Shown here: one piece after another, positions 9,464 through 52,350 of the stretch
Numbering within the stretch: the stretch's first letter is position 1
Layout of the letters: each line of letters opens with the position of its first letter
Assembly: GCA_021521415.1 (NCBI GenBank)
Contig: JAIQDT010000026.1
Location: 4,863,001 to 4,927,000 of the forward strand
Direction: 5' to 3'
Length of the DNA: 64,000 nt
Source: Bidens hawaiensis
Lineage: Eukaryota > Streptophyta > Magnoliopsida > Asterales > Asteraceae
Made by a program: the position numbers and the translations under genes
Notes under the pieces: generated by a model
The model's database searches: none
What the model was told of the DNA's origin: nothing
The model's input: only the letters and a program-made list of their open reading frames with translations

Positions 9464-10926
9464 CTACAAGTATAACAAAGCTCAATTTTAGTATTTTTGA
9501 TATCAATAATTAATTTTAATCGTTAATACCCTTTATGTCTCCAAGACAATTAATGATTAAAATCTAGAACCCAACTTAAATTCAAATAGTAGTTAGGTGA
9601 CCTTTATCCTACTATTTAAATTAACAAGGTAGTTAACATTTGACGATTGCAACCCTTTGCAACTTCTAGTTTTATGGGATCGTTTAAACATCTTATGTTT
9701 AGTTGGCATGTTTAATCCCATAAACACCATTGTACACCATGCTTCGGTGACCCTATTCACATGGTTTCCAATTTAAGTCGTCCTACTTATACACACATGT
9801 GAGTTTACGTATACAAGTGGTTAGGTGACCTTTATCCCACTTATATGGTAAAACCACCTCAAACTCCCAAGTTTCCTCCAACATGGTTAGGTGACCTTTA
9901 TCCCATATCGAGTTCCCAAGTGATTCGAGTGTTGTATAAAAGGATGGTGTTCGACTTATTTTATAAAAGGGATTTTCGTCTTCTAAATTCTAGATTGGAA
10001 AACCTTTTATGTACCTTTCATTTGCATGCATTCAAATGTATGGTACTTAGTTTAAAAACCCATTTTCAAAGTTCCTATTGATAAAACCCATTTTATTATG
10101 AAATCATTAGACTTTAATAAAACCAATTTTTATTACCTAACGATTTCTAAGGAACCAATTTTATGCTAGTTGTTGATTTTAAGTAGTTAGCAAACCATAT
10201 GGCAATAACACAAACAAAAGAAAATCAACCATGCAAGCATAAAACATACAACCACAAGTTCATAACCCTAGCCTCCTAATGTTGACTACACTTGTTGACC
10301 GAAGACAAGTGTGTCAAAAGGTCTTTCCTAAGGGACCCGAAAGGACATAATCTTGTGTCGGTGAACTCCCACTTGATCCCGCATCTAAATGCTCCAAGTG
10401 TTCACCCCTGTGTTGTGGTCTCCACTTTATTTGGGCTTCCATCCTTGCATCTTCTTTTACAAAATATGTCCTAATACATTTTTCTAGTAAAAGAAATGCA
10501 TCTAATCTACTTATTATTACAAACCAAATGAATGAATAAATAGATTACAAACCCAAATAAATATTACAACCATATCGAATGAACAAACACATAAACACAA
10601 CCATTCAACCAAACACAAGGCCATGGCTAGGTTATGAACATCTATTACACATCCAAATATGCAATAATCCAAGACCAACAATTGGTTCCCCTTTCCCTGA
10701 AACTTTCGGCCCAAATAACAACCAAACCGAAAGTTTCGGGTTTTTTTCCAAACAACACAATCAATCATCCAAATGACTTAGTTTTTCAAGATTACCACAT
10801 GCATGTAAACTATAACCTTGAAAAACCATGGGGTAACCAAAACCCCTAAAATTTTCGGCCATATGGTAAAACCCCACCATAAAACCGAAAATTTTTCGGT
10901 CTAATGAAGCATGCATCCGTATAAGC
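9464..10926 (-). other. E2L leader between primer binding site and gag
   Basis: About 1.46 kb without a gene. It is homologous to 26250-27729 in E2R. It contains four hairpins with related loops (9584-9908, separate entry). The part from about 10517 to 10920 also has stretches such as CCGAAAGTTTCGG near 10725 but no supported coding region. Confidence 0.75.
9584..9908 (-). repeat. Four hairpins with a conserved loop and different stems, E2L leader
   Basis: The 16-nt loop TTAGGTGACCTTTATC (plus-strand reading) appears exactly at 9593-9608, 9821-9836 and 9887-9902. The stems are AAATAGTAG/CTACTATTT (9584-9592, 9609-9617), ATAcAAGTGG/CCACTTaTAT (9811-9820, 9837-9846; lower case unpaired) and ATGG/CCAT (9883-9886, 9903-9906). 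A related loop with GGTGACC lies at 9742-9759 between ACCATG (9736-9741) and CATGGT (9760-9765). Arms pair within each copy but differ between copies. Three have counterparts in E2R. Confidence 0.85.
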
Positions 10927-10940
10927 GGCTCTTGATGCCA
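10927..10940 (-). promoter_or_regulatory. E2L primer binding site
   Basis: On the minus strand TGGCATCAAGAGCC starts two bases after the LTR end, resembling the plant initiator tRNA-Met site TGGTATCAGAGCC with small changes. It primes minus-strand cDNA synthesis. Confidence 0.8.
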
Positions 10941-10941
10941 C

Positions 10942-11904
10942 TGTTGGGTTTTAACAAGATTATCAAAGTTATAAAACTTCAATTTTATGAAAAACGCAGC
11001 GGATAAAAGATTTAAATCTTGTTAGTTCATAGTGTATAAAACCAATTTTATACATGCAAAACCCAAACCCGGATCCAAATACGAAATACATACTATCAAA
11101 CACATGCATGTCACTATAAGTTCATGCATGTTAAACTACCTTTCAAGTAAACCAAAGAAGTATGAAGGAGATGGTGAAAAGTAGGCAAGAACTTCAATAG
11201 GTAGTTCCTCAAGCTAGTATACCCTAAGCTCCAACAACACACCTTTAGCTAGGATTTTAGCGCTTGAAAAACACCTCCTTGTTCTTCTTCTCCTTTGGCC
11301 AAAAATTGGAAGAGAAAGGAAGAGAGTGAGAGTGTTTTTTATTACTTGCAAAAATATGTAATGAAAAAATGAAAGAGAAATGTTGTGGTCATTCAAAGGC
11401 ACCACCCAAAGTGCCAATCACAACATTTGCATGTCTCAACTCATTTGAAAATAATAATATAAAATTGAATAGAGAAAGGGGGGGGGGGGGGCGGCCACCC
11501 TCATGCCCATTTCAATTTTATTATTTTTTTAAACAAGTTTTAAAATGTAAAACTTATTATGTTATGTATTTTCATTTCATAGAATTATAACATAACATTT
11601 TTCAAGCAACATGCAAATTGATAAGTGTTACATATTGTTATTTAACCATCTTAAATAACATTATGTAATGTTCTCTTTCAAAATATAAATCATCCATATG
11701 ATTTATTTATTTCACAAGTACATTGTATTTAGAAACCCTTCCCAAATAACATAAGTGTCAATATTTATTTACTTATGATCATATCATATATAAACAAATA
11801 TAATCGGTGTTTGTCTAGCTTGTTATTGGGTATGACCCGACTTGGATCATAACGTACTAGCCACATTAATCATAATATGTGTCTTGGGCAGACCGAGTCC
11901 AACA
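10942..11904 (-). repeat. E2L 5' LTR, 963 bp
   Basis: The ends on the minus strand are TGTTGG (11904 side) and CCAACA (10942 side). It matches the E2R LTR at 25315-26234 in inverted orientation, with many small differences and a poly-C tract of unequal length (14 here at 11478-11491, 10 in E2R). Read on plus it carries no gene. Confidence 0.9.
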
Positions 11905-12500
11905 GTTTGAGTTTGGAATTGAGTTGAATTGGATTGTGATTTGATAGATGTGGATTTGAATGTTAATGGCGGAAAACGTAGCTATATGGACTGTTAATTG
12001 AGGTCCGGATTGTAGTGTTTGTGGTTACAGACTAGCTCGGATTTGGATTACGAGTTGTTTGGTATAAGTTTTGTTGATTACATACGAGTATGGACTGAGA
12101 TATGAATGTTTTGGACATGATGACTGATTCGTTAACTGTTGAAGATTGATTCGTTTAATGTTGAAGATTGATTCGTTAACAGTTTAATTGTAACTGATCA
12201 TTCGTATACTCACATTCGCAAAACCTACATTCGCTAAACCTAGATTCGTTAGACAATACATTCGTCATGACTTTTGCATAAGTCACGTTCGTTAACACAA
12301 GTGCCATTCGTTAAGCACTGATTTGCTATTCATCAAACACATTTTCTAAACACATTCGCTATCCATTTTCTCACATTCGTTACTCATACCTATTCGTTAC
12401 ATCTTCACCATTCGTTACTGTTCTCTCATTCGTTTGAACAGTAACTATAATCTTTTACATTTAATAAGTTTAATCCTTGATTTTTCAAACTTGTTATCTC
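11905..12500 (+). other. E6 5' non-coding region with a same-strand ATTCG array
   Basis: No gene is seen. From about 12120 to 12440 ATTCGTT, or close variants such as ATTCGCT and ATTCGTA, recurs roughly every 15-25 bp, almost all on the plus strand. Two tandem units of about 22 bp (GTTGAAGATTGATTCGTT) lie at 12136-12180. No tRNA-Met primer binding site is visible, so the LTR and its junction are probably on the far side of E2L. Confidence 0.7.
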
Positions 12501-24679: not shown

Positions 24680-25314
24680 TGATGTCATCATAAGATCTAG
24701 ATCCTAACTGGCTCTCTCAGAAGATGAGGCCAACTAGGAAATAACTAAAAAAGAAGCTCGTGACAAAAGAGATTATGAAGAAGTGAAAAGTAAACACAAA
24801 GATGTCAAGTTCCTGCAATTGCATGGATTTGATTATAACTCTCTCATAGACCTGACCCTTGAAGAATTGAAAAGAAAAGTGCAAATGGTGAAGGATTCAC
24901 ATAAAGATGCAAAATGCACTACAGACTGTGAAAGGGAGAGGAGATTAAGAATGAAGTTGGACAAAGAAAGAGAGGAGGTAGAAAAGAAGAAGGAAGAAAC
25001 TGTTGAGTGGTTCAATGACCCCGAAAGAGTGAAAACTTTAAAAGATATATTAATACAAAAGGGATGACGGAAGCATAACTTGAAAGCATGCCTCATGAGC
25101 AGTTGATTGAAACATATAATAGAGAGCAGAGTCTATTTTTGGAAACCTAAAGAAAGATACTGGTAGACAGATTGAAAAGAGAAGAAGAGGTAAGAGCTGA
25201 AATGACTAGCATATCTTCAACAGGGTATTGAAAAGTGATAGATTTGGTATTGAAAAGTGGAGTTGAGATCAAAAGATTGTATGAAGAATCAGAAAAAAGA
25301 TTTGGGAAGCAAAC
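24680..25314 (+). other. Unassigned sequence between E6 and E2R with a coiled-coil-like frame
   Basis: A frame at 24783-25067 (94 codons) reads MKSKHKDVKFLQLHGFDYN and then a Lys/Glu-rich helix (LRMKLDKEREEVEKKKEE). Similar charged coding potential continues in broken frames to about 25310 (ESMPHEQLIETYNREQ, VDRLKREEEVRAEM). I cannot assign it to a family. It may be the flank into which E6 inserted, or a remnant of another element. It ends in CAAAC beside the E2R LTR. Confidence 0.45.
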
Positions 25315-26234
25315 TGTTGGACTCGGTCTGCCCAAGACACATATTATTATTGATGTGGCTAGTACGTTATGATCCAAGTCGGGTCATACCCAATAACAAG
25401 CTAGAAAAACACCAATAATATTTGTTTATATATGATATGATCATAACAAACAAATATTAACACTTGAGTTATTTGGGAAGGGGTTTCTAAATACATTGTA
25501 CTTGTGAAATAAATAAATCATATGGATGATTTATACTTTGAGAGAGAGCATTCCATAGTGTTATTTAAGATGGTTAAATAACAATATGTGAATAATGGTT
25601 ACCAAGCATGTTACCTATATTATAATATAAAACTTATTTAAAGAAAAAAAATATATAAAATTTGAAACGGGTGAGAGGGTGCCCCCCCCCCTCTTTACTC
25701 TCTTACACCTTTTATTTTATATTATTATGTTTTCTTTAGTGGAGACATGCATTGGATGTGAGTGGGTGCCTAGGGTGGTGCTTCCATTAACTCCCTAACT
25801 CTCTTTCATTCATTCTTACAACATTTTGCAAGTAACAAAACATTCCTCTCTTCCTTTTCTCTCCCATTTTCGGCCACAAGGAAGAACATCAAGGACGAGT
25901 TGGTTTTTCAAGTGAATCCTAGCTAAACAAAGGTGTATTTTTGGAGGCTTGGGGTATGCTAGCTTGAGGAGCTTCCATATTCAAGTTCTTGCCTTTCAAT
26001 CACTCTTTCTTCACCCGGTTTTGGTTTACTTGAAAGGTAGTTTAAAATGCATGAACTTATAGTGACATGCGTGTGTTTGATAGTATGTATTTCGTATATG
26101 GATCATGGTTTGGGTTTTGGATGTATAAAATTGGTTTTATACACTATAAACTAACAAGATTTAAAACATTTATCAGCTGCGTTTTTGGTAAAAGTAAGGT
26201 TTTATCACTTTGATAATCTTGTTAAAACCCAACA
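25315..26234 (+). repeat. E2R 5' LTR, 920 bp
   Basis: Begins TGTTGGACTCGG and ends AAACCCAACA; the terminal inverted repeat is TGTTGG/CCAACA. It aligns to 10942-11904 reversed. The preceding five bases CAAAC (25310-25314) are the reverse complement of GTTTG at 11905-11909 beside E2L. Confidence 0.92.
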
Positions 26235-26235
26235 A

Positions 26236-26249
26236 TGGCATCAAGAGCC
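26236..26249 (+). promoter_or_regulatory. E2R primer binding site
   Basis: TGGCATCAAGAGCC one base after the LTR is identical to the E2L site and resembles the initiator tRNA-Met complement. Confidence 0.82.
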
Positions 26250-27729
26250 GCTTATACGGATGCATGCTTCATTAGACCCAAAAATTTTCGAGTTTATGGT
26301 GGGGTTTTACCATATGGCCAAAAATTTTAGGGGTTTTGGTTACCCCATGGTTTTCAAGATTATACTTTACATGCATGTGGTAATCTTGAAAAACTAAGTC
26401 ATTTGGATGATTGATTGTGTTGTTTGGACAAAACCCGGAACTTTCGGTTTGGTCAAGTTTGGGCCGAAAGTTTTAGGCCAAAGGGGAACCAATTTTGGGT
26501 CTTGGATTATTGCATATTTGGATGTGTAATAGATGTTCATAACCTAGCCATGGCCTTGTGTTTGGTTGAATGATTGTGTTGATGTGTTTGTTCATTCAAG
26601 TGGTTGTTTGTTCATTCGATATTGTTGTAATATTTATTTGGGTTTGTAATCTATTTATTCATTAATTTGGTTTGTAATAATAAGTAGATTAGATGCATTT
26701 CTTTTACTAGAAACATGTATTAGGACATATTTTGTAAAAGAAGATGCAAGGATGGAAGCCCAAATAAAGTGGAGACCACAACACGGGGGTGAACACTTGG
26801 AGCATTTGGATGCGGGATCAAGTGGGAGTTCACCGACACAAGATTATGTCCTTTCGGGTCCTTAGGAAAGACCTTTTTGACACACTTGTCTTCGATCAAC
26901 AAGTGTAGTCAATATTAGGAGGCTATGGCTATGAACTTGTGGTTGTATGTTTTATGCTTGCATGGTTGATTTTCTTTTATTTGTGTTATTGCAATATGGT
27001 CTACTAACTACTTAAAATCAACAACTAGCATAAAATTGGTTCCTTAGAAATCGTTAGGTAATCAATTGGTTTTATTAAGGGCTAATGATTTCACAATAAA
27101 ATGGGTTTTGTTAATAGGAACTTTGAAAATGGGTTTTTCAACTAAGTACCGTACATTTGAATGCATGCAAATGCTAGGTACATAAAAGGTTTTCCAATCT
27201 AGAATTTAGAAAACTAAAAAAACCCTTTTATAAAATAAGTCGAACACCATCCTTTTATACAACACTCGAATCACTTGGGAACTCGATATGGGATAAAGGT
27301 CACCTAACCATGTTGGAGGAAACTTGTGAGTTTGAGGTGGGTTTATCATATTTGTGGGATAAAGGTTACCTAACCACTAGTATGTGTAAACTCACATGTG
27401 TGCATAAGTAGGACGACTTAAATTGGAAAATATGTGAATAGGGTCACCGAAGCATGGTGTACAATGGTGTTGATGGGATTAAACATACCAACTAAACATA
27501 AGATGTTTTAACCGATCCCATAAAACTAAAAGTTGCAAAGGGTTGCAATCGTCAAACGTTGACTACCTTGTTAATTTAAATAGTATGATAAAGGTCACCT
27601 AACTACTATTTGAATGTAACATTGGGTTCTAGATTTTAATCATTAATTGTCTTGGAGACATAAAGGGTATTAACGATTAAAAGTAATTGATATCGAAAAT
27701 ACTAAAATTGAGCTTTGTTATATTTGTAG
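26250..27729 (+). other. E2R leader with three conserved-loop hairpins
   Basis: No gene is seen. Loops GATAAAGGTCACCTAA at 27292-27307 and 27587-27602, and GATAAAGGTTACCTAA at 27358-27373, are the reverse complements of the E2L loops. Their stems are ATGG/CCAT, AAATAGTA/TACTATTT (27578-27585, 27604-27611) and CATATTTGTGG/CCACTAGTATG (27347-27357, 27374-27384; nine of eleven positions identical to a perfect complement). Confidence 0.8.
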
Positions 27730-28041
27730 ATGGCCGCAATCAACAATCCACCTAACGTTGATATTCCACCCGTTAATAACCTATCACTAAGATCTATTCT
27801 TGATAAGGATCGTTTAAACTATACCAACTTTATGGATTCGTATGGAAACTTGAGAATCGTTCTCAAGCAAGAAAAGAAACACTACGTAATAAATGAGCCT
27901 ATTCCTGATGAACCTAGCATTGACGATGCCGAAGACCATAACAATTGGGTTAAGCACAATGAGGATTCGGTGCAAGTTTCTTGCCTCATGTTGGGAACAA
28001 TGATTCCCGAAATTCAAAAGGATTTTGAACTTCATGGGGCG
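27730..28041 (+). pseudogene. E2R copia gag, N-terminal fragment
   Basis: The start at 27730 opens 104 codons (MAAINNPPNVDIPP..., SLRSILDKDRLNYTNFMD, SCLMLGTMIPEIQKDFEL) before the E3 LTR cuts in. This part has no stop, so it is better preserved than its E2L counterpart. The capsid C-terminal part and zinc knuckle are missing. Confidence 0.9.
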
Positions 28042-28046
28042 TAAGA

Positions 28047-31991: not shown

Positions 31992-32261
31992 TTCGATCGA
32001 ATAGGAACACGTTCGATCGAATAGACACACATTCGATCGAATCTGTGGCACACTCGATCGAACTAGAAACACATTTGGTCGAACCAGTTGGAAAAACTCG
32101 TTCGGTCGAACATGGAACTTGTTCGATCGAATAGACACTCGTTCGATCGAATACGAAACTCATTCGGTCGAATGAGTTGGAGACCATTCGGTTGCTTTCC
32201 TATTCGATCGACTGAACTGATTCGATCGACTGGACTGATTCGATCGACTGGTTCGATCGAA
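31992..32261 (-). repeat. Array of about 14 TTCGATCGAA palindromes in the E4 LTR
   Basis: Exact or one- to two-base variants start at 31992, 32012, 32032, 32053, 32075, 32101, 32122, 32142, 32163, 32203, 32221, 32239 and 32252, with an imperfect one near 32186. Most steps are 17-21 bp. The full site is a perfect 10-bp palindrome. An identical array is at 40203-40472. The even spacing suggests sites for a dimeric DNA-binding protein in U3. Confidence 0.9.
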
Positions 32262-33030
32262 TGAGTCTGATTCGACTCCTTCAAGCTGGGCGACGGAGAA
32301 ACCTACGGGTTTTTCAGATTTTCCAGATTTTTGACCCAAAATCGAAGTTTTTGACATGGAAATGCTCGGGATTGAAAGGGCTATCGATTCCTAGTGATTT
32401 TAAACACAAAAGCCTGCATTTTGACACCAAAACAAGACGGTTTTTGACCCGAAAACTCTAGAAACGAAAGTGGGTGTTTTTGCTCGATTTGAGGCCGAAA
32501 ATGGTTATGAAAATGGATGATTTTCAAGAAGATCTTACCAAGAATAACAACAAACAGATTTGTGGACTCGGATTTGAAGTTTGAAGACTTTCTCTCTCTA
32601 GTTTCTCTCTCTAGAATGAGAGTGTTTGGGTGGGAAGTGTTGGTGGAAATGAAAGAGATGGTGTAAGAATACTTGATTTTCCGCTTAAATACTCGGGTGA
32701 CTCGGGTTCGGGTTTAGGCTACCGACGGGTCAAGACTAGTCGAGTTCATAAGTTTTTAAACAAACTAAAACTTTTTCAGCAAAACTTTTATAAAACCATT
32801 TTCCGAATAATTATTTGAAATCTTTTTAAATAAGAACATTTAATTTTTCGAAAGCATAAAAATTAATATTTTTCAGGCGTAAATGTCGTTTTATAAAATA
32901 AACATTTTAAATGATAAAAGCAGATTTTTCCAATGATATGGGTTCTGAACTTATCGTCCAAAATCCCAAAGTCTATAGTTTCCGATGATTTCACGATCCT
33001 AGTTTACCAATCGAATTTCAGGGCGTTACA

Positions 33031-34014
33031 TTCTCCCCAATTTAGAGGAATTTCGTCCCGAAATTTAGAACTTAGTATAGTTGATGCAATGATGTTTTAG
33101 ATCAAATGATCCCATGATGACCACTATGCGCCACTACCCCTAATTTTCGTCTTGGATACCACCCAAATCAAGTTGAAGGGGTTTATATATAGGGTGTACC
33201 AGCGGCTAACCCACCACTCCCTCAACTCCACTTGGGTGTTTCTTTCGACTCCTATTAGTTCAATGACACACAGGACGACACACTATTTTCCACTACAAGG
33301 CATCACCTTCAAGCTTTACATCAGACATATTCATTTCGGATTGAAGGGGTTTATATATAGGGTGTACCAGCGGCTAACCCACCACTCCTTCAATCTCCAA
33401 TGAATAATTCCCTCAATAACTCTTGAATTTAACGCCTCACAGCTGCCACGCTAACTATGAGTCCCTAATTCCAAGTCTCGCTTCAGACATAATCAACTTG
33501 TGCCGAAGGGGTTTATGTATAGGGTGTACCAGCGGCTAACCCACCACTCCTTCAACATTCATTGATTAATTCCCTACACGAAGCTTGAGTTCATGACTCA
33601 TAGTTACACAATAGCATATTGTTTATACACGTATACACCTGTGAACTTGATGTAATTATATTCCGGACTATAATTACGAGTTCACCTTGTATCAATGTAT
33701 AAACTCCATTGTGTGCGGCTAGAAAAATCGACACGACACCACACACACACCCACAACCATGCTTCATGAATGCTAGAATGATGACAAATTTTGGCTCAAT
33801 GATACATAGTTTACCCCAATGTTTACATGATTAAGTATGCACAACTTGTGTTTTCCAGCACGAGTCATGGGTAGCCAAACTTGGTGTTATGCAAATAAGA
33901 GAATATTTATAAGCAAATAGGAACAACATGATACTTCATTGATTGATATTGGTCCCTGATTACATGATTACGATTACATAGACTCCAAGATTTCTAGAAT
34001 TACAAAGATGATGA
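33031..34014 (-). other. E4 3' untranslated region with polypurine tract and three TATA-hairpin repeats
   Basis: Next to the LTR the minus strand reads AAATTGGGGAGAA, the polypurine tract. Three copies of the LTR core lie at about 33162-33236, 33329-33405 and 33490-33560, spaced 168 and 162 bp, within diverged tandem units of about 165 bp. Their flanking arms pair: CCCAAATCAAGTTGAAGG with CCCTCAACTCCACTTGGG (14 of 18) and ATTCATTTCGGATTGAAGG with CCTTCAATCTCCAATGAAT (16 of 19); the third pairs less well. No ORF is supported. Confidence 0.85.
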
Positions 34015-37000
34015 CTATGCGAACAGATGAGGGTATTCCTCCTTCATCTTAACCTCTCGCTCCCATGTGAACTCGGGTCCACGATGGTTGTTCCAACGTA
34101 CCTTGACTATGGGTATCCGGCTTCGCTTAGTCCTTTTGACTTCTCGATCTAGGATCTCGACAGGTTCCTCAACAAAGTGTAGTTTGTCGTCGATGCGAAC
34201 CGTGTCGATCGGGATTTGAGCGGTCTCGTCAACGAGGCACTTTTTGAGTTGCGACACATGAAAAACGTTGTGAACACGGCTGAGTTCTGGAGGCAATTCC
34301 AAGCGATAGGCTACGGGTCCGACCTTTTCGATGATCTTGAAAGGTCCTACGTACCTTGGAGCAAACTTTCCCTTTTTTCCCGAAGCGAACAATGCCCTTC
34401 CAGGGGGAAACTTTGAGCATTACGCGATCGCCTATTTGGAACTCCAGAGGTTTGCGGCGTTTGTCAGCGTAATACTTGTGTCGACAGCGGGCGTCCTTAA
34501 GTCTTTGCTGGATGATGGCGATACTGTCAGTGGTTTCCTGTATCAGTTCCGGGCCGAGGATTTGAGAATCTCCGGTCTCGGACCAACACAGTGGAGAACG
34601 ACATTTCCTGCCATAGAGTGCCTCGAATGGTGCGCATTTGATGGTAGCATGATAGCTGTTATTGTATGAGAACTCTGCAAGAGGAAGGTGAGTCTCCCAG
34701 CTACTACCGAATTCAAGGATACAGGCTCTGAGCATATCCTCCAGGGTTTGTATGGTCCTTTCGCTCTGACCGTCCGTTTCAGGATGATAGGCAGAGCTAA
34801 GTTTCACACTTGTCCCAAAGGCTTTCTGAAATGACTTCCAGAACCTTGACGCAAAAGAGGGGTCACGGTCAGACGTGATGCCCTTAGGCACACCGTGACG
34901 GGTTACGATCTCACGAATGTAAATCCGCGCCAGCTTCTCCGTAGTGTAGTCCTCGCGGACAGGGAGAAAATGGGCAGACTTGGTCAAGTAATCCACGATA
35001 ACCCAAATCGTGTCATAACCGCTGGGTGTCCGCGGGAGTTTGGTAATGAAGTCCATAGCGACTTCGTCCCACTTCCACTGCGGTATGATCGGTTGCTGTA
35101 GCAGGCCAGATGGTCTCTGATGTTCAGTCTTGATCCGCGAGCATGTTAGACATCTACCGACGTACAAAGCTATGACTTTCTTCATACCCGGCCACCAGAA
35201 GTGAGACTTGAGATTCTGATACATTTTATCACTGCCTGGGTGAATAGAGTATCTGGATTTGTGCGCTTCGTTCAGGATGAGTTCTCGAAGTGGTTCAGAG
35301 TTTGGAATCCACATGCGATTTAAGTAGTAAAGTATACCATCAGACTTGGTTTCAAACTTCCGTTCGGCACCGCAAGATAGCATATTTTTGAGATCACCAC
35401 CAGCAATCGCTTGCTTTTGAGCTTCAAGAACCATGGAGGGAAGATTGGACTGAATACGGATCGCATGCAACTGGGTCCTTTCCTTGCGACTTAACGCGTC
35501 AGCCACTACGTTAGCCTTTCCAGGGTGGTAGCGGATTTCGCAGTCATAGTCACTTAGGAGTTCAACCCATCGACGTTGTCGCATGTTTAGCTCCCTTTGA
35601 TTGAGGATGTGTTGTAGGCTCTTGTGGTCGGTGAAGATGACACATTTCGTACCGTATAGGTAGTGTCTCCATATTTTTAAGGCAAAGACCACAGCACCCA
35701 ATTCCAAGTCATGAGTGACATAATTCCTCTCATGACTCTTGAGTTGACGCGAGGCGTAAGCGATGACCTTACCGCGTTGCATTAAGACGCAGCCTAGACC
35801 TTGGCTCGAGGCGTCGCAATAAACAACAAAATCATCGTTACCCTCAGGAAGTGACAGGATTGGTGCATGACAGAGTTTATGTTTCAATGTTTGGAAAGCC
35901 TCTTCCTGCTCTTGGCTCCAAATGAACGGTTCCCCTTTTTGAGTTAACATTGTGAGAGGCAATACGATCTTTGAAAAGTTCGAGATGAATCGACGGTAGT
36001 ACCCAGCTAAACCAAGAAATGAACGAATTTCGGTTGGCGTTGTAGGCGCTCCCCAATTTTTGATGGCTTCAATCTTGGCAGGGTCGACATGAATGCCTTC
36101 CTTGTTAATGATGTGACCTAAGAATTGAATTTCCCTTAGCCAGAATTCGCATTTGGAGAATTTGGCGTAGAGTTGCTCTTTCCTCAGCAGATCCAAGGTA
36201 AGCCTGAGATGAAGCTCATGGTCGGCTTTAGAGCGGGAATAAACGAGAATATCGTCAATGAAGACGATAACAAACTGGTCCAGGTATGGACGACAAACGC
36301 GATTCATGAGATCCATGAACACCGCAGGGGCATTCGTCAAACCAAAAGGCATGACTAGGAACTCGTAGTGTCCATAACGAGTTCTGAAAGCGGTTTTCGC
36401 GATGTCGTCCTCCATGACGCGTACTTGGTGATAACCTGAGCGTAGGTCGATCTTGGAAAAGTAAGTGGCTCCTTGCAGCTGGTCGAAAAGATCGTCAATC
36501 CTTGGTAATGGATACCGATTCTTGACCGTGAGTTTGTTAAGCTCACGATAGTCTATGCACATCCGGAAAGATCCGTCCTTCTTCTTGACGAAGAGGACTG
36601 GAGCTCCCCATGGAGATGAACTAGGGCGAATAAAACCCTTGTCTAGTAGTTCCTGTAGCTGGCTCGATAATTCCTGCATTTCTGACGGAGCCAAACGATA
36701 CGGAGATTTTGCCACGGGGGTTGCACCGGGAACTAATTCGATGCGGAATTCGACTTGTCGGCTAGGAGGTAGTCCGGGTAAGTCTTTAGGAAAAACGTCT
36801 GGAAATTCACGCACGACGGGGACATCAGAGAGCTTCTTCCCCAAAGATTTCTTGATGGAGACATGAGCTAGGAAGGCGAGACACTTCTTTCGAAGGCATC
36901 GCCGAGCTTTAAAGCAGGAGATTAATTTCAGACATCTACCTGATCTTTCTCCTTGAATAATTATGGACTCGCCAGAAGAACAAGGAACGCGAATGAGCTT

Positions 37001-38476
37001 CTCAGCACACACCACTTCCGCGTGGTTGATGGACAACCAATCCATCCCAACAATTACATCGAAACTTCCTAATTGCATAGGGATGAGGTCAATGCTAAGA
37101 GGCGTCTGATCAAACGTAAGCGTGCAATTGCGAACGATTTCGTTCACTTGGGTAGACTCTCCGTTTGCCAATTCGACAGAGAAAGCGGGGTCTAAGACAG
37201 AGGTTCCTAGATTAAGCAATGGGACCAATGCGCTAGAAATAAAACTTCTATCTGCACCCGTATCAAATAGAATAGAAACCCAGAGATTGTTGAGAATGAA
37301 CGTACCAGTAATGACGTCAGGATTTTGGCGAGCTTCAGCAGCGCCAATAGTAAAGGCTCGGCCTCGGGCCGGAGGAAGATTTGCAAGACGAGGACACCTG
37401 CTCTTGAAGTGGTCCGTGGCTCCACACTCGAAACAGCCTCGAGTGTTGCTGGGTTGGGAACTGCTGCTCTGTATTGCCAGTTGATTACCTTGAAATCTGC
37501 AGCGTTCCGCTAGGTGCCCCAAACGCCCACAGTTCGTGCATTTCCAGCACGGGGTTCCGGCAGGGTGATGAAATTGGCAAGTGCCGCACATGGGGTGAAC
37601 CCCAGTGTACTCCCTCTTTGGCCTTCCAGAAGGGGTGGGAGCAGGTGCGACAGAGCTGATTGGGGTTGCGGGAGTAACCATCGCGTAACTGCTAGCCTTA
37701 CGCTTTTTGATGCGGTTGATCTTTTTGGATGAGCCCTCGGCGGCCTTGCCCGTACCTTTGGCTAGGACCCCAGTCTTAACCTGGTCCTGGGTCAGTCGGG
37801 CAGCTAGTTCAATGGCCGCTTGTAGGGTTGATGGGTCAGCCCCGATAACGATTCCACGGACAGTGTCAGGTAGGCCATTGATGTAAAGCTCAATAGCCCG
37901 GGAGGGAGGGGTGACCAAGTGTGGTACGAGAAGGGAGAGCTCGTGAAAACGCTCCGTGTACCCTTGGTGATCAGCGCCCGTCATTCTGTGCACCCAAAAC
38001 TCAGCTTCAAGTTTCTGCACCTCACTGCGAGGTACGAACTCGCGGGTAACCAAAGCTACGAATTCCGACCAGGTCATGGCCAAGGCAGCCTCACGCCCGC
38101 GGGTTCTTATCTCGTTGTTCCACCAGGTCAGCGCGCGTTTAGACAACATGCTTGCCGCGTGCGTGACCTTCAGTGTCTCAGGGCACGAGCTAATAACAAA
38201 GGCAGCCTCCATCTTTTCGATCCACTGGAGGAGACCAACGGCGCCTTCTGAACCGCTGAAGCTGGTGGGTTTGGTAGCCATGAAGTCCTTGTATGGCTTA
38301 TTTGCTGGTTCATTTGCGTTCTGAGCTGGAATTTGGTTGGCCCCAGAGGTTCCTTCTTGCCTCAGCCCCTGGCTGATGGCTGTTACCATGCCTGGTAACA
38401 CAGCCGCGATCTGCTGGGCTATAAGGTTGGCTAGATCAGCGGAGTCCAAGGGGGCGGGTGCACGTCTGGGAGGCAT
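34015..38476 (-). CDS. E4 Gag-Pol polyprotein, one frameshift near the end
   Basis: The start at 38476 ([14 protein letters not shown]) is preferred over an in-frame Met 18 codons upstream because it is the usual Gag start in this lineage. Order, with residues counted from that start: Gag domain about 60-240 ([27 protein letters not shown]), zinc knuckles [14 protein letters not shown] and [14 protein letters not shown] about 315-370, protease [11 protein letters not shown] about 404, RT with DLRSGYHQ and FIDDILVYS about 738, RNase H ([32 protein letters not shown]), and integrase with its zinc region, AMDFITKLP about 1140, [11 protein letters not shown] and GQSERTIQT. The frame leaves register at a T6 run (34373-34378, plus strand); the GPF module and a chromodomain-like tail ([15 protein letters not shown]) continue in the neighbouring frame to 34015. 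All catalytic residues looked for are present. Confidence 0.93.
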
Positions 38477-38724
38477 TCTTGACAAAACGAAAAAAAAAAC
38501 GAGCGTTAGATAGAATCGATGACACGCCAAAGATTAAGAATAGAGGACATAGATTATACCAAGAACACAGAATGACATGGCTCAAGAGATTAACAGTTAA
38601 TATACAACACATAAGCACGCAGCACGTATATAAGTGTAGACATGTGATTGTGATGCATGAGCTATCTAGAGTCAAGGATCCTAGGTTATAGTCTAGGTCG
38701 GTTTCCTAATTCCCTATAACCACT

Positions 38725-38737
38725 GGCTCTGATACCA
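38725..38737 (-). promoter_or_regulatory. E4 primer binding site
   Basis: On the minus strand TGGTATCAGAGCC begins three bases after the 5' LTR; it is a perfect initiator tRNA-Met type site. The 248 bp between it and the Gag start show nothing else. Confidence 0.95.
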
Positions 38738-38740
38738 ATC

Positions 38741-41241
38741 TGTCACACCCCGATCGTGATGGCGGAATAATCGAGGCGCGGCGACTAAGTCGTGATTGTT
38801 GAGCACAATAGTATAAAAGTCTAAATGCATAAACATAACCAAAATGTCAAATATTACACCATCCAGGTAACATGAAACAAACTGTTTTAATACAAAATAT
38901 CAAGTTTCCAAACAACTCCTAGACTAGCCTTCATATCTCTAAGGCCTCTAAACTTGCTAGGGATTTCTTGCTGCATTATTTCCTGAAAACATGTAACAAA
39001 CTGTCAACTACATAAAGTAGATGAGTGAATTCATAGGTTTAAAGAAAAAGAGTTTATACACAAACATACTAGTATAGGTTGTAGGGGTTTATATATAGGG
39101 TGTACCTGCGGCTAACCCACCACTCCTACAACTTATACTACTATGTTTGGATATAATACCCGGTTTTAAGATGGTTTGTAAGAAAAGGGCTCTTGGTTTT
39201 CCCAAAGAGGTTTTTGTAGTAAGTAAAACATGAAATGTTCTCCTGGACTCTCAGCGGGCTTATTATTCTCCCATTAGAGTCGTTTGTGATAAGATTACTC
39301 AAAGATTTGTGGTCTCCCAACGATACATGTAGCACATAGCAGTTAAGCATAAATGAGGACATATAGATTTGAGCATGCTAAGTTTACTAGATAAACCAAC
39401 ACCAAGATCCCACAGTTTTCTAGTATCCAAGATGATGGTGAATAAATGATGATGATGATGAATGAAGATGAAACTCAATGATCACACAAGACTTGATTGA
39501 TCCCACGCAAGACTTAAACCAAGACTACCTCGTTCTTGTCATCCAGGACTCAGCTAGGTTCTACCGAGAGTAGGATAGACTCCCCAAAGAATCCTGGGTT
39601 CCCTTGGTCCCTACCGAGACTAGTATAGGTCCTCAAGAGTTATGGATTTCACCGAGACTAGTATGAAATCCCATGAGTTACGAGTGCCACCGAGAATAGA
39701 ATGCCACTCATGGTCGCGAGTTCTACCGAGAGTAGAATAAACTCTCGCGTCCAATTCAACTCATGATGCTTTGATCTCTAGATTTCCATGCTGACACAAT
39801 GACTATGATGATATGAATATGATTCCCATTTCCCATGATGTCAATGTTCATAGAATTTCCCATACTCATTGATTTCCAATGTTCTTAGATCTCCATAAGT
39901 TGATGGGTTTTCCCCATGTTCATAGATTTCCAAAGTTTATAGTTTAAAGAGTGTTTGCATAAATGATTTTTATCCAAACGTGTAAAGTTACCATGTTTCC
40001 ACCCCATAGTTTTGAAAAGCTTAAATAGGGGCTATGAACTCACCTTGATCTCGGGTTAGGATGGTGCTACAATAGATCTCCTTAGCCTAGAGTTGAACAT
40101 AAATATAAGGTTAACAACGTGCTATAAGTCTAAGAAAACGAGCTTACGCGGCCTCGAGCAAAAACTGGGTTTTAAAGACGAAACAGCTTGGTTCTGGCTT
40201 GATTCGATCGAATAGGAACACGTTCGATCGAATAGACACACATTCGATCGAATCTGTGGCACACTCGATCGAACTAGAAACACATTTGGTCGAACCAGTT
40301 GGAAAAACTCGTTCGGTCGAACATGGAACTTGTTCGATCGAATAGACACTCGTTCGATCGAATACGAAACTCATTCGGTCGAATGAGTTGGAGACCATTC
40401 GGTTGCTTTCCTATTCGATCGACTGAACTGATTCGATCGACTGGACTGATTCGATCGACTGGTTCGATCGAATGAGTCTGATTCGACTCCTTCAAGCTGG
40501 GCGACGGAGAAACCTACGGGTTTTTCAGATTTTCCAGATTTTTGACCCAAAATCGAAGTTTTTGACATGGAAATGCTCGGGATTGAAAGGGCTATCGATT
40601 CCTAGTGATTTTAAACACAAAAGCCTGCATTTTGACACCAAAACAAGACGGTTTTTGACCCGAAAACTCTAGAAACGAAAGTGGGTGTTTTTGCTCGATT
40701 TGAGGCCGAAAATGGTTATGAAAATGGATGATTTTCAAGAAGATCTTACCAAGAATAACAACAAACAGATTTGTGGACTCGGATTTGAAGTTTGAAGACT
40801 TTCTCTCTCTAGTTTCTCTCTCTAGAATGAGAGTGTTTGGGTGGGAAGTGTTGGTGGAAATGAAAGAGATGGTGTAAGAATACTTGATTTTCCGCTTAAA
40901 TACTCGGGTGACTCGGGTTCGGGTTTAGGCTACCGACGGGTCAAGACTAGTCGAGTTCATAAGTTTTTAAACAAACTAAAACTTTTTCAGCAAAACTTTT
41001 ATAAAACCATTTTCCGAATAATTATTTGAAATCTTTTTAAATAAGAACATTTAATTTTTCGAAAGCATAAAAATTAATATTTTTCAGGCGTAAATGTCGT
41101 TTTATAAAATAAACATTTTAAATGATAAAAGCAGATTTTTCCAATGATATGGGTTCCGAACTTATCGTCCAAAATCCCAAAGTCTATAGTTTCCGATGAT
41201 TTCACGATCCTAGTTTACCAATCGAATTTCAGGGCGTTACA
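38741..41241 (-). repeat. E4 5' LTR, 2501 bp
   Basis: It is nearly identical to 30530-33030 at a constant offset of 8211 bp, with no length difference. It carries the same hairpins and arrays: TATA hairpin 39065-39145, ACCGAGA set 39556-39751, TTCGATCGAA array 40203-40472. This copy would drive the genomic transcript leftward. Confidence 0.95.
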
Positions 41242-42308
41242 ATAACCCCGCCTTAGATCCTGCTATGCACGCGGCTATCGTCGACGAGGTTTACCAGGTG
41301 CTCCATAGCGCCATTCCCGAGATCGTTTTTGAGGTCGTTAGGGCCATGGAAGAGTCATTGGTTGGTAAAGGTTCGGATAAAGGGAAGAAATGTAAGGTGA
41401 CGTAGGTCGAGGAAGAGGAAGAGGTGTATGTACCGAGTGGGGATAAGGACGAGGTTCGGACTATTAGTGTATCTACTCGGGGTTGTTCGTATGGGGACTT
41501 CAAAAAGTGTGACCCTCCTTCTTTCGATGGTACTAAAGATGCTTTGGCAGCTCATCAGTGGGTGAGAGAGATGGAGGCTGTTCTGAGGGTTAGTAAGTGC
41601 AAGGGAGATGACATGGTCACTTATGCTACCGCCTCGTTTCGTTCCGAGGCATTATGTTGGTGGGATAATCTGGTGCAGGCTATGGGTGATCGGTTGATTA
41701 GGAGGATGACATGGGATGGATTGAAGAAGTTGGTTCTCGATCAGTTTAGTCCTCCGCACGAATTGGATAAAATTGAACATGAATTCTTGACCTTGGAGGC
41801 GGGTAGTATGACACATCGGGAATACACCACAAAGTTCAACAAGATGGCTCGCTTATGTCCCAATCTGGTTACCCCTGAGGCAAAAATGATTAAGAAGTAT
41901 GTGAAGGGCCTCCCGGTGGATATTCGTAGGGGTGTGGTGACCACCGACATGAACTCCTTTCACTCGGTGGTTAGCTTGGCAGGTACATTGTATGATCAGA
42001 GGGAGAAGTTACCGCCGACCGAGGCTAGGAAGACTTGGAACACTAATTCGTATGGTAAGCGGCCCGGGGGAAACAATTTTAGTTCGTCTGGGAAAAGGGT
42101 GAAGACTGAGACTTCTGAGTTTAGGAGGGATGCGGCATTCAGTAATTGCAAGAAGTGCGGCAAACTACACAAGGGGGACTGTAAGAGTGGGTCCGACACC
42201 TGTTTTCGTTGCGATAAAGTTGGGCACCCCCATTACGAGTGTCTGACTCTGAGTTGTTTCCGCTGTAAGGGTTCCGGTCACTTGTCATCAAACTGTCCTA
42301 CTAGTTAG
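41242..42308 (+). pseudogene. E3 gag, 3' fragment after E4
   Basis: The first five bases are the right copy of the ATAAC duplication. The frame reads ALDPAMHAAIVDEVYQV, has a TAG at 41403-41405, and is then open from 41424: FKKCDPPSFDGTKDALAAHQWV, LCWWDNLVQAMG, KLVLDQFSPPHELDKIEHEF and LCPNLVTPEAKMIKKYVKGLP are Gag blocks of chromoviruses. Three zinc-knuckle-like motifs follow (CKKCGKLHKGDC, CFRCDKVGHPHYEC, CFRCKGSGHLSSNC). It ends at TAG 42306-42308. Confidence 0.88.
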
Positions 42309-46993: not shown

Positions 46994-46994
46994 T

Positions 46995-48096: not shown

Positions 48097-50844
48097 TGAC
48101 ATTTGAGCCAAAACATGGTACACCTCAGTACGTATTTACCGATTAAGCAAATAAACGCCTTTTGCGTAACAAACGAACGATTAACCGAATGGGTCGGGTT
48201 ATGACCCAAAAATATCGGGGGGCCATCTATAAGTGATATACATTTAATATAAGATAAAATATTAGTAATATTGCCTTAGTTCGATAGCAAACAAGTTAAA
48301 CGAAAACATGCTCGTTTAACTACCCGCTATAGATTTAAACGCGAAAGATAGTTACAAACCAAGCATTGTATCATCCGTTAAGCCGTAAAAGACTTACCAA
48401 ACACTTATTTGAAATGTTTTAAGCGTTCCGTGAAAATATTTTTGATTTTTACAAACATATGGTATGTTTTTATAATTTTACACAAAACTAGCCGAAAAAC
48501 AGTCGTTTCCGCACTGTTTAACGCACCCGATAAGCTTTTCGCGCCAAAAACCGAACCCGAACTAAATTTGGACTGGGCTTTTTGTATTTGGGCTTGAGAA
48601 ATCAGAAACTTGGGCCAAAATGGGCCCATGGACTTCCAGCCGCAGCCGCCACCCCACCCCCCTTTTTATCCTTTCACATATAAACTAGATTTGAGATATT
48701 TTTACACATATTTTCAAACACAACTTCTGGAACTCTTCTTCTACAGCCAAAACCAGCAAGAAAACTAGGTAAATACCTTATGATTAATCGATTTTTGATT
48801 CGTTTAAACTCGTTTAACAACATATAAACATGTCTTGATTGTTAAAAATCATAGTTAACCATGTAAAACTCTCAAAAATCATTCAAAAACATACTTTGAT
48901 GTTAAACCTAGTTTCAAATCAGAATCATGATCTTTTTTGGCCATAAACACGGATTAAAGGGTTGAAACGGCGTTTTTACGGTTCAAAAGTTCGTTTTTGT
49001 GCACTAGCCGAAACCCTAAGTTAAAGGGTTGTTCTACTGATGAAACCTGCTTGGTTTGTGATATAGGACTTATATCTAGCTTGCATAGAAGCACAAGAAC
49101 CTGAAAACTTGATTAGAAGGGCGAAAACGAACCAAAACCGCTAAGGTAATGCCGAAACACTCGCTTACGGGCTGTTTAGGTTATGGTTGTGATGTGAATA
49201 TTGTTAGGCCTTAAAATGTTGGAGGAGCATCAGGGACCATGTCAATGAGTGCCTGTTCAAATTTGGTAATTTTTCGACCATCCGAGAATATTTGGCGAAT
49301 TTATTACAGAATTGGAACGTTTAATTGGGAAAATTAGCTAAAATACTTCAAAAATTATGAAATTTTTCTGGGAACTCAGATTTGATGAATTTTGATCACA
49401 TATGAATTTTTGGATCATTTGGAGAAGTTTAAAGGTGTTTGGTTTAAATGCGTTTGTGTGAATTTTTATAGCCGAATTTAAGCCGAAAAGAATATCGCAC
49501 GAGCTTTTTACATTCTGGAATTGACACAGGTTTTTTTGGGACATGATTTGAGTGTTTAAAAATTTTTGTGGAATTTTTCGAAATTGTTTGGGGTAAACGG
49601 ACGATTTTCATACTAAATATAGCTGATAAAATGAATTTTTATAAATTAAACTGAATAAACGGAAACGGGCCCCGTGGCTAATCCGGGACCCCAGTATGTG
49701 ATCCTTCTTTATAACTTAATCATTTTATTAACCAATACATTTACCCAAGCTTATTTTCCCATAACTGTTTTCTGAACGCGTAAACGAACAACTTGGCCCA
49801 GATGGGAAAACGGGAATTTGAGCCAAGTTCAGTTCTAAGTATTAGACATTGAACAACATCACAACCTAAGCCTATTGCCACTTTCTAGGCGTTCCAGCTA
49901 CACCCAGATTAGTTATACAGCCCAGTTTAGTATTGAGAATATAATAATATTAAAATATTAATATTATTATAATATTGATTATAGGAACTACTGATAGCGG
50001 ACCGAACAAACCACGAGCTGATACAGTACTGATTATCTTCATAACCGTGAGTTTCATGACCCCACTTCTAAACTGTTTTACGAACTTTTTAGGGTGAAAA
50101 GCATGTTTGATTATATATACATACCTAAAACATGTATTGATGTGAATTATCTAAGTGCTAACACACGAAAGTCCCCACGATCAAAGTGATTAACTTCGAG
50201 CCGGTGGCTTGTGAATAGTACAATTGGTTTGACAAACCCAAACGGAGCCGGCATGTATTGTTGAGACTTTACTCCGTTTGCACATGACCATATTTATACA
50301 ACACGTTATGTAGTGTTAGACATAGCTACTTGGGGCATGTTGTGGGCGGAAAGAGGCCACAGTGGTTGATTGAGCGTGGGAAATGGATGCACGCAGCACA
50401 TACAGTCAAGGCTTCACTGTAGCTTAGCATAATTACATCATTTACATACATACATACATACTTATTTCATGATTACAAGTGTTAACTTGTGAATACTCAT
50501 TACTGTTTTCTCAAAACTCGTGAAACTCACTAACTCTAATAGTTGACCTGTTTAAATCTGCTTTTCAGGTGTACCTAAATCGGAATGATTTGGTGATCTG
50601 TTACTTGCCCAAGGAGTGTGGTTGATGCTATGTGAATAGAGGCAAGGGTATTAGTAGTAAGAACGTATAGTTAACGAACTAGTTTTGTTTGTATCACCTA
50701 GACTGTAAAACAATGATAGAACAAAGAAATGTAATATATTGTAAATTAGTTTGTAATATTTCTTTATAAACAATGTGTTGATACCAGAGGTGTCTGTTAC
50801 ATTCCCGTTTTACGCTTCCGCAATGTGCTAGTCGGAGTGTGACA
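48097..50844 (+). repeat. E5 5' LTR, 2748 bp
   Basis: Starts TGACATTTGAGCC, matching the sequence after the polypurine tract at 63344, and ends GGAGTGTGACA before the primer site. Inside are AAACGGAG/CTCCGTTT (about 50248-50280) and GGTTTgacAAACC (about 50225-50240) hairpins. Several differences from the 3' LTR show it is older than E4. No gene is seen. Confidence 0.9.
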
Positions 50845-50849
50845 GAAGT

Positions 50850-50862
50850 TGGTATCAGAGCC
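50850..50862 (+). promoter_or_regulatory. E5 primer binding site (copy 1)
   Basis: TGGTATCAGAGCC, five bases after the LTR, is the initiator tRNA-Met type site. The duplicate is at 57572-57584. The 530 bp from here to the leader ORF hold A/T-rich DNA and no gene I can support. Confidence 0.92.
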
Positions 50863-51395
50863 ATTGGTTATAAAGGATTAGGTTATCCCTTAGGGTACCT
50901 AAAATATAACCGTAGGCTCGATTAACTCTGGGCAATATTTAAATAATAAATTAATATTATATACTGATGGATGTTGGGATAAACTTGTAGGGCAAGTGAG
51001 TTATTGTGGTCCGGAACATAATAACAGACTTGCTTGTACGAGGGAATTCGAGGAGAAGTCGCGGAACGTGTGGTTAGGTAAAAGTGGCAACATATGTGTA
51101 TAAAAGGTAATGTGAAAGTATATATATATGTAACACTCATACGTGCTTAATTGGAACAAGGTGTATGAATACGTGTACGTACGATACTCTTTGATGACGG
51201 TAAATTTTACTATGAATATTATATTTATTTATATTCAATATTGATTTAAATAATAATAATAATTAAAATTTTAATAAAACTAATATTATATTCTAATATA
51301 ATTAATATTAAATTTGGTTTAATTAATTAATCTTTTCGACAATAGTTAGCGCTAGCAATAGATATTATTCTTATAACTAACCTTTGTGCAGAGTC

Positions 51396-52154
51396 ATGTC
51401 AAGGAATAACGACTATGTATCGGAAGAAGAACCGGTAATCTCTGTTGAGGAGGATCCAGAGGAGGAATCCGAGGAGGATCCAGAGGAGGAATCCGAGGAG
51501 GATCCGGAAGAGGAGGAACCGGAGGAGGAGGAGGAAGAGGTGGAAGAAGAAGTTATCTATAGAGAGCTACCCAGGAATGTGCCTGATCTATCCGGCTACA
51601 GATGCGATAGTTATCCCCCCAGGTCACCACGCAGGGATCAAAACGAAGTTAACAGTCAGTATCGTTCACCTGCTAGAGTAGCCCGATCACCCACTCCACC
51701 CATTCACCTGTCGCCGACGACTTCAGCTACTGCGCGAGTCCGATAGAGTGCTCGTATTCGGGTAACCCCGATTGACCCTACCTCGATTCCATTCAGATCT
51801 ACCCACGACCGGGGAGGACCTTCACGCCCTAGGGCGGATACTTCATCTTCCCGTTCATTAAGTATACCTACTCCTCGCCCTGACCTCCCAAACGCAGGAA
51901 ACAACTCTTGGATGGCTGTCCTGACTGACCGCGTGATAGACCACTCGATAGCCATAGCTAACATTAACCAGGAAAGGAGGGATGTGACCAAGTGCTTATC
52001 GACGTTACATCATATAGTACTGAACTTGCAGCAGTCAGATGCCTACCACCGTTGGTGTTTGGATAGGGTGACAGTTCGACTGTGGAACTGTTACTGGATG
52101 ATCACGGTGTTGTTGTTTGTATGTTTGTGGTTAGTCTATCGTATGTATGGATAG
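51396..52154 (+). pseudogene. E5 leader ORF: acidic, coiled-coil, tail-anchored protein (copy 1)
   Basis: The frame starts at 51396 (MSRNNDYVSEEEPV) rather than at the Met four codons upstream, a choice of context only. It has EEDPEEES repeats and a Glu run at residues about 10-60, an Arg/Pro/Ser-rich middle, a helical stretch LTDRVIDHSIAIANINQE to LQQSDAYHRW at about 170-215, and a C-terminal hydrophobic segment YWMITVLLFVCLWLVY followed by RMYG-stop. One TAG at 51744-51746 interrupts it; the same frame continues after it. It lies between the primer site and gag, where most gypsy elements have no gene. A tail-anchored membrane protein is inferred; I do not recognise the family. Confidence 0.6.
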
Positions 52155-52255
52155 ATGCAGAATGTTACAGATATGTGTACTTGATCTTTTGATACTCCAT
52201 GTATGTATATAGTAGTATGTTATGTTAACATGGGGCACAATTTTGTATACTATTA

Positions 52256-52350
52256 CAAGCACTGACCCTTATAGGGTTAAGTCTAACTGTCACTTAGTGA
52301 CAGATTTTGATATACACATGCAAGCACTGGCCTTTATCAGGCAAAGTCTA
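52256..52350 (+). repeat. E5 leader hairpins with conserved flanks and different stems
   Basis: Two units share CAAGCACTG before and AAGTCTA after. Unit 1 has stem ACCCT/AGGGT (52265-52269, 52273-52277), unit 2 GCCT/AGGC (52330-52333, 52339-52342). Between them CTGTCAC/GTGACAG (52287-52303) is a perfect 7-bp hairpin with a TTA loop. The duplicate lies 6722 bp downstream. The rest of 52155-52500 has no gene. Confidence 0.7.

Follow-up and report, generated by a model that had tools for sequence, protein, structure and literature searches.

Repeated RNA hairpins with conserved loops and changing stems in copia and gypsy retrotransposons of Bidens hawaiensis

What kind of feature is a short hairpin whose loop is the same from copy to copy, while the two arms of its stem differ between copies and still pair within each? 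The question is raised by a 64-kb window of Bidens hawaiensis DNA (contig C26, positions 4863001-4927000 of a 3.47-Gb assembly; "the window" means this whole stretch), plant-type DNA rich in long terminal repeat (LTR) retrotransposons, where a first-pass annotation had reported such hairpins in the non-coding parts of a copia element (E2) and two gypsy elements (E4 and E5). All the examples it quoted are where it placed them, and fixed loops on arms that are unlike between copies but pair within them occur in E2 and E4, with the true arms ranking first in four sets of hairpins. We conclude that a real RNA-level feature appears to be under selection in E2 and E4 at least, two families that are unrelated; E5 is a probable third family and E1 a possible fourth. 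The claimed spread over several unrelated families is well supported for the first two and weaker for the others. The feature is a set of cis-acting retroelement RNA hairpins of a new variant, in which the loop is conserved and the stems are not. We propose, tentatively and at a chance close to even, that the hairpins are multivalent, element-specific RNA recognition sites, most likely for packaging by Gag.

E2 lies on the minus strand, is assigned to copia from the domains of a relative of another subfamily (L011, with an open frame carrying Retrotran_gag_2 and a zinc knuckle), and has an inverted second copy at 25310-28056 (87.8% identity). Its core TTAGGTGACCTTTATC occurs in five exact copies in the window, at 9593, 9821 and 9887 (+) and at 27292 and 27587 (-), and in all five the flanking sequences, on the strand given, are complementary over about 4 to 9 bp, the innermost stem pair being broken in copy 27587. 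Because E2 and E4 lie on the minus strand, the strand originally quoted is the antisense one, which hides G·U pairs; on the sense strand, stems gain them, and the best structure of the E2 copy at 9902 includes four. Set membership also had to be revised, since E2 has a fourth, variant member at 9743-9758, the TCTCG set of E4 comprises five hairpins, and a second E4 set had been missed. The E2 features, in sense order with the inverted set last, are these:

10942-11904, minus strand: E2a LTR, with ends TGTTGGG...TCCAACA read by eye
about 10928-10941, minus strand: primer-site-like stretch beside the LTR, read by eye
9873-9916, minus strand: E2a hairpin 1, core 9887-9902, which covaries between subfamilies
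9807-9850, minus strand: E2a hairpin 2, core 9821-9836
9733-9768, minus strand: E2a hairpin 3, core 9743-9758, variant loop GAAUAGGGUCACCGAA
9577-9626, minus strand: E2a hairpin 4, nearest gag, core 9593-9608, RNA loop GAUAAAGGUCACCUAA
9463, minus strand: E2a gag ATG, from translation
27278-27616, plus strand: E2b, the inverted second set of four hairpins, cores at 27292, 27358, 27436 and 27587

The last E2 hairpin ends about 105-120 nt upstream of the gag ATG, both in E2a and in the other subfamily represented by L011.

E4 carries gypsy-type domains and is young, with an LTR pair 99.7% identical and a gag-pol frame of 1433 codons. Its set a (E4a), at positions 1502-1722 of the 2518-position LTR, contains ACCGAGACTAGTAT at 31402 and 31440, with LTR duplicates at 39613 and 39651. 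Set b (E4b, the TAGCC set) consists of four copies of a 40-nt conserved block near 30866, 33172, 33341 and 33507, which reads GAGUGGUGGGUUAGCCGCUGGUACACCCUAUAUAUAAACC in copy 33387 and varies in the other copies. One copy lies at LTR positions 2104-2185 and is hence present in each LTR; the other three precede the 3' LTR as tandem units (33150-33575) that can still be aligned. The best structure of each copy has 18 to 22 closing pairs, with an outer stem unlike between copies, and the full folds reach -30.6 to -39.1 kcal/mol. The block also holds TATATATAAA, a TATA-box-like stretch, in the LTR copy and in two of the three copies before the 3' LTR.

30529-41257, minus strand: E4 gypsy element, LTRs 30529-33046 and 38740-41257, primer site 38737, gag-pol frame 38530-34229
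39536-39756, minus strand: E4a, 5' LTR copy, offset 8211 from the 3' LTR copy
31325-31545, minus strand: E4a, 3' LTR copy, five consecutive hairpins on five unlike stems, with UCUCGGU on the 3' side of the loop
33480-33575, minus strand: E4b copy before the 3' LTR, first in sense order (fold and permutation test)
33318-33413, minus strand: E4b copy before the 3' LTR, second in sense order (fold and permutation test)
33150-33246, minus strand: E4b copy before the 3' LTR, third in sense order (fold and permutation test)
30852-30943, minus strand: E4b LTR copy, a long hairpin around GAGUGGUGGGUUAGCCGCAGGUACACCCUAUAUAUAAACC (fold and permutation test)

Do the arms belong together, or were matching flanks simply picked out by chance? 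In a permutation test that kept the core open, allowed flank-to-flank pairs only and compared energies over all arm combinations, the true combination was the most stable of all permutations in every set (1 of 24 for E2a, E2b and E4b; 1 of 120 for E4a). Mean energies of true and swapped arms were -12.1 and -2.9 kcal/mol in E2a, -10.4 and -1.7 in E2b, -15.1 and -9.4 in E4a, and -20.6 and -5.6 in E4b. Against random positions of the same region the joint p was 1.7e-5 for E2a, 1.7e-5 for E2b, 4.3e-5 for E4a and 3.3e-6 for E4b (simulation floor). Folding z-scores lay between -3.29 and -1.21 in the four E2a hairpins and between -3.71 and -1.03 in the five of E4a; the fold windows truncated one arm of E2b copy 27358 and the outer stems of three E4b copies, whose z-scores are little informative. 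A cruder score, with too short an E4a loop, gave p 0.054 for E4a, the energy test having used another core definition. An unbiased scan of both strands took in 777 pairs of repeated 9-mers with unlike flanks; when both stems had to reach -7 kcal/mol or lower, true arms gave 15 pairs and swapped arms none. Of the 15, 12 come from one palindromic TTCGATCGAA array of E4, 2 are a single E4 pair present in both LTRs, and 1 is from E2. At or below -5 kcal/mol the scan gave 23 true and 2 swapped pairs, the 23 comprising 16 from the E4 TTCGATCGAA array, 3 from E2, 2 from E4a (one pair, two LTRs), 1 from E1 and 1 from an AT-rich stretch. As one palindromic array yields most of these matches, the scan is support of limited weight. 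That array, together with modest single-site p values (0.001 to 0.28), is what speaks for chance or cherry-picking, an explanation that the joint and permutation tests and the genome samples contradict and that we regard as scarcely credible.

The genome samples draw on exact matches on both strands, with the reversed pattern as control. The E2 core occurs 10,609 times (1 reversed), the E4b core 4,496 times (0 reversed), the double E4a loop 742 times (0 reversed) and the E5 flank pair 2,300 times (6 reversed). For E2 we compared 20 leaders, hand-picked as clusters among the first 100 of the 10,609 places and mostly holding at least two exact cores, plus the window; the pair count left out at least five hairpins with other loop variants, as well as weak look-alikes. 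Among 48 distinct hairpins, 78.8% of 480 cells were paired (shuffled 56.7%, slid registers at most 51.3%), the covariation score was 0.587 (shuffled 0.243, with 0 of 500 shuffles reaching the observed score; slid registers at most 0.237), and two-sided changes appeared in 133 cells (shuffled 66.3). The E4b sample took 14 of 17 distinct rows, leaving out three LTR-type rows that were aligned with a gap. Here 96.0% of 224 cells were paired (shuffled 82.9%, slid at most 51.8%), the score was 0.497 (shuffled 0.250, 0 of 500 reaching it; slid at most 0.141), and 34 cells showed two-sided changes (shuffled 11.2). In E4a, a C-G to U-A change in hairpin 1 and a U-A to C-G change in hairpin 3, each altering both arms, occur together in 3 of the 30 arrays sampled; a recount with overlapping loci gave 37 arrays, 4 of them with these changes. 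A further test compared orthologous positions of E2 hairpin by hairpin, with a looser loop rule and 1000 arm swaps. Hairpin 1 covaries among orthologous copies (4 of 1000 swaps reach the score and 0 of 1000 the two-sided-change count), and hairpin 4 does so more weakly (43 and 29 of 1000). With two of the four E2 hairpins covarying orthologously, the signal lies partly among the four unlike hairpins of each leader, as the first-pass annotation had pointed out, and is partly compensation over time.

Is it the RNA or the DNA that is held? G·U and A·C are each one transition away from a Watson-Crick pair, and so, we argue, DNA symmetry or neutral decay predicts the two at equal frequency. Sense-strand counts of G·U against A·C are 58 to 23 cells in E2 and 26 to 3 in E4b, or 15 to 7 and 8 to 1 when each column and type is counted once. 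Of 20 hairpins in five sets, 18 have a stem that is more stable in sense than in antisense. The G·U excess on the sense strand points to selection on RNA rather than to decaying copied arms, and of the two origins first suggested it is the selected structure, assignable to the sense-strand RNA, that these results support. The other, a purely mutational origin in which one arm was copied at birth by template switching or fold-back synthesis and the pairs are neutral remnants, would by reasoning yield unlike but matching arms in one step; it is not favoured by the G·U bias, by two-sided changes among related copies or by loops more conserved than spacers, and we consider it very improbable. A fold-back insertion, or one like a miniature inverted-repeat transposable element, was also rejected, as it would share arms between copies; here the arms differ and the loop is shared.

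Another alternative places the function in DNA, with the sets as palindromic enhancer boxes of the Sirevirus RM or Tnt1 BI/BII type and the hairpins as a by-product of dyad symmetry. Tnt1 BI/BII boxes are tandem or palindromic LTR repeats that serve as DNA enhancers, and we know of no covarying stems in them. Tnt1 tandem repeats are mentioned in a paper on LTR structure (PMC3601003), and RM boxes are described in PMC2829016 as symmetric motifs, repeated in high copy number in the non-coding DNA of copia elements of plants and interpreted as possible DNA regulatory boxes. The window does contain something of this form in a separate array of palindromic TTCGA[TC]CGA in the E4 LTRs (31987-32277 and 40198-40488, minus strand; nine exact copies in 31950-32320), in a host that is a gypsy element; tandem TTCTCGGTCAA arrays elsewhere in the genome, which also resemble RM boxes, and the TATA-like stretch within E4b can be counted on the same side. 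RM boxes, however, conserve the palindrome, whereas in E2, E4a and E4b the arms diverge and the loop is conserved, and their hosts are copia elements, whereas E4 and E5 are gypsy (E2 is copia, known through its relative). DNA boxes predict conserved arms and equivalent strands; the diverging arms and the excess of G·U over A·C make this reading quite unlikely. The first-pass annotation, which knew of no named class with this behaviour, was partly right: packaging signals and Sirevirus boxes are near relatives, but the boxes conserve the palindrome itself.

Compared with E2a, one related leader (L036) is identical at 64 of 64 loop, 70 of 80 arm and 256 of 281 spacer positions, and a more distant one (L021) at 60 of 64, 64 of 80 and 212 of 281. 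Mean column conservation over 18 leaders is 0.968 in loops, 0.894 in arms and 0.877 in spacers, and loop letters are held more strongly than stem letters. In a fold of the E4 LTR region the TCTCGG motif is more open than the region as a whole (0.69 against 0.37, p 0.004).

Several results weigh against reading the hairpins as selected, family-specific RNA sites. Arm covariation in genome samples, which had been put forward as the test, stands above shuffles in pairing and score for E2 and E4b, but the two measures least inflated by relatedness are not clearly above shuffles in either: pairs with a two-sided change number 10 of 10 in E2 (131 of 500 shuffles as high, the measure being at its ceiling) and 7 of 16 in E4b (127 of 500), and further pair types number 31 in E2 (22 of 500) and 17 in E4b (382 of 500). 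E2 hairpins 2 and 3 are without covariation among orthologs (618 and 422 of 1000 swaps reach the score). Two E2b copies have fold z-scores of +1.02 and -0.15, and single folds are often unremarkable; one of the five E4a hairpins and one of the four E4b copies, that in the LTR, are slightly more stable antisense. The E4 motif is open in the antisense fold too (0.64 against 0.44, p 0.02), and the E2 core is weakly open in the sense fold (0.55 against 0.37, p 0.07). In E1, introduced below, one of six arm swaps is more stable than the true arms. TCTCGGT is found in tandem repeats of other elements as well, which is awkward for a family-specific ligand; triple TCTCGGT runs number 8,712 in the genome (reversed pattern 102), part of them from E4 and part from direct TTCTCGGTCAA repeats elsewhere. 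Finally, if E4 transcription starts at TATATATAAA in set b, set a would be U3 and stand at the 3' end of the RNA only.

E5, a gypsy element by its domains, lies on the plus strand as two 6722-bp tandem units at 49661-63181 (99.35% identity), after which come 79 bp of a third unit. The flank CAAGCACTG is at 52256 and 52321, with tandem-unit duplicates at 58978 and 59043, and the gag ATG is at 52501.

52252-52288, plus strand: E5 hairpin 1, CAAGCACUG-ACCCU-UAU-AGGGU-UAAGUCUA, ending 213 nt before the gag ATG
52287-52303, plus strand: E5 middle hairpin, CUGUCAC-UUA-GUGACAG, from the fold
52314-52354, plus strand: E5 hairpin 2, CAAGCACUG-GCCU-UUAUC-AGGC-AAAGUCUA, ending 147 nt before the gag ATG
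58974-59076, plus strand: same hairpin set in the second tandem unit, offset 6722

The original E5 claim is the weaker one, comprising two hairpins of the named kind, two compensated pairs and weak folding statistics (z -1.98 and -0.35). The variable stem has five pairs, of which two are compensated from one hairpin type to the other; in the second type the innermost pair is broken. Also frequent genome-wide, in a comparison that left out at least two length variants, is a third type, with one G·U pair and a broken innermost pair.

Why would a transcript carry one loop many times on interchangeable stems? Many open copies of this kind are what a sequence-reading RNA-binding protein would need in order to bind one RNA repeatedly. 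Under the proposed mechanism, each family would keep several copies of one short RNA recognition sequence per transcript; the hairpin would present that sequence open in its loop (in E5, beside the stem), leaving the stem free to change while pairing, and repetition would create several binding sites on one RNA. The loops differ among E2, E4 and E5, which fits a ligand encoded by each element. CCHC zinc knuckles are present in the gag regions of E4, E5 and L011, and the zinc knuckle of Gag is a natural candidate; the partner would most likely be the element's own Gag or nucleocapsid, using the array to select genomic RNA for particles. The E4 LTR sets would presumably lie within the transcribed RNA at both ends. 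Dimer formation through ACUAGU, a perfect palindrome in two E4a loops, was rejected, as hairpin 4 has lost the palindrome in some of the copies listed. Pairing of the loops with a target elsewhere in their own element was rejected too: no exact complement of GGTCACC, CTCTCGG, TCTCGGT, TTAGCCGC, CAAGCACTG or AAGTCTA was found on the sense strands of E2a (7035-11904), E4 and one E5 unit.

Retroviral psi is likewise a signal in the RNA of an LTR element. Judged by sequence position, the E2 and E5 hairpins share its place between primer site and gag; those of E4 are found in the LTR and ahead of the 3' LTR. The RNA secondary structure is conserved, with the reservations given for the E2 orthologs and the two shuffle measures. 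Differences are that one loop here stands on several unlike stems and that the packaging role is putative. In packaging signals of the MS2 type, the stems are free to vary. Dispersed packaging signals and the assembly they mediate in MS2 and other RNA viruses are treated in part of PMC6281560. A common loop motif on unlike stems, several per RNA, is found here as well; the MS2 motifs are scattered and known to be bound by protein, whereas here they cluster in non-coding parts and binding is putative. Among retrotransposons, a passage of PMC3735527, resting on its reference 16, gives dimerization and packaging signals for BARE1 and BARE2, and the same source has BARE2, which cannot make Gag, keep the signals and be packaged in BARE1 particles; unlike those, the E4 sets are also in the LTR and before the 3' LTR. 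Ty1 and Ty3 encapsidation, as covered in part of PMC4974528, is among the nearest described cases.

The leader position suits another explanation too, namely that the hairpins control gag translation from a long leader, be it by internal entry, by shunting or by re-initiation downstream of frames such as the extra one of E5, and that host factors bind the loops. The E2 and E5 sets lie directly upstream of gag, both leaders are long, and the E5 hairpins are preceded by a 116-codon frame; the E4 copies before the 3' LTR and the family-specific loops are left unexplained, and we rate this explanation as rather unlikely. That E5 frame (51396-51746, plus strand), between primer site and gag, is acidic and has a repeated EEDPEEE. 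The hairpins might instead be RNA sites for host factors in export, stability, splicing or 3'-end formation. The location of the E4 sets in the LTR and before the 3' LTR, the RNA-strand signature and the sharing of TCTCGGT with other families agree with this, and the LTR sets of E4 may fall within an intron-like stretch, with a donor near 32540 and an acceptor near 30770 (minus strand). These splice sites were read by eye only, and with loops that differ among E2, E4 and E5 a single host factor is not obvious; we consider such sites unlikely.

A broader form of the packaging proposal is possible but doubtful: plant LTR retrotransposons of both superfamilies would as a rule label their genomic RNA with an address that is multivalent, specific to the family and read by Gag. 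The address would be a repeated motif near gag or in the LTRs, carried by covarying hairpins (E2, E4, E5) or by plain repeats (E3, L100), and Gag would read it much as coat proteins read the dispersed packaging signals of RNA viruses. LTR retrotransposons make up much of many plant genomes, but little is known of how a plant element selects its own RNA for packaging. Short fixed-loop hairpins present in thousands of natural copies are a mutational record of which bases are read and which merely hold the stem. Such copies open the packaging question to direct test, and could show which Gag carries which non-autonomous elements.

Rfam (4227 families) has no match at gathering threshold within the window. 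MIR7994 (RF03818) was rejected for the E4b LTR hairpin, which scores 31.0 bits against it (28.6 bits on the other strand; gathering score 100), with E 0.0033, or 0.00013 in a shorter search. GGTGGGTTAGCCGCNGGTACACC has no match in the viral and genome contig collections, and the presence of the E2 16-mer in nine viral contigs is taken as chance, estimated from collection size. The main text of a survey of plant structured RNAs (PMC12218528), by term search, contains no mention of transposons, LTR, copia or gypsy, and the relevant part of an enod40 paper (PMC10578108) concerns another RNA. Searches of the open-access literature, with subscription journals and preprints outside that scope, brought up no described class of conserved loops on covarying stems in plant LTR retrotransposons, a result that does not prove absence.

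E1, the possible fourth family, lies on the plus strand, with an LTR at about 5345-6985 (read by eye).

6277-6631, plus strand: E1 LTR set of three hairpins, core TGAGACCGAGAGGTGAT, cores at 6302, 6496 and 6590, with weaker evidence

Its sense stems have -10.0, -9.7 and -11.6 kcal/mol, and the joint p is 7e-4. In the same region (6302-6606, plus strand), ACCGAGAG is the reverse complement of CTCTCGGT, which sits in two E4a loops.

Plain repeats were noted in other elements. Five loci (L098-L102) carry TTCTCGGTCAA repeats, partly palindromic with ACCGAGAA in L101 and L102, and these direct and palindromic arrays resemble Sirevirus CGG-CCG boxes. In L100 a TTCTCGG / TTCTCGGTCAA array stands directly upstream of a gag-like ATG, whose frame stops after 38 codons (gag likeness read by eye). 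The leader of E3, a copia element of the window (12127-12433, plus strand), holds ATTCG[T/C] 14 times, and 68 nt separate the end of the last repeat from the gag ATG at 12501; in the fold these repeats are only weakly more open than their region (0.51 against 0.43, p 0.07).

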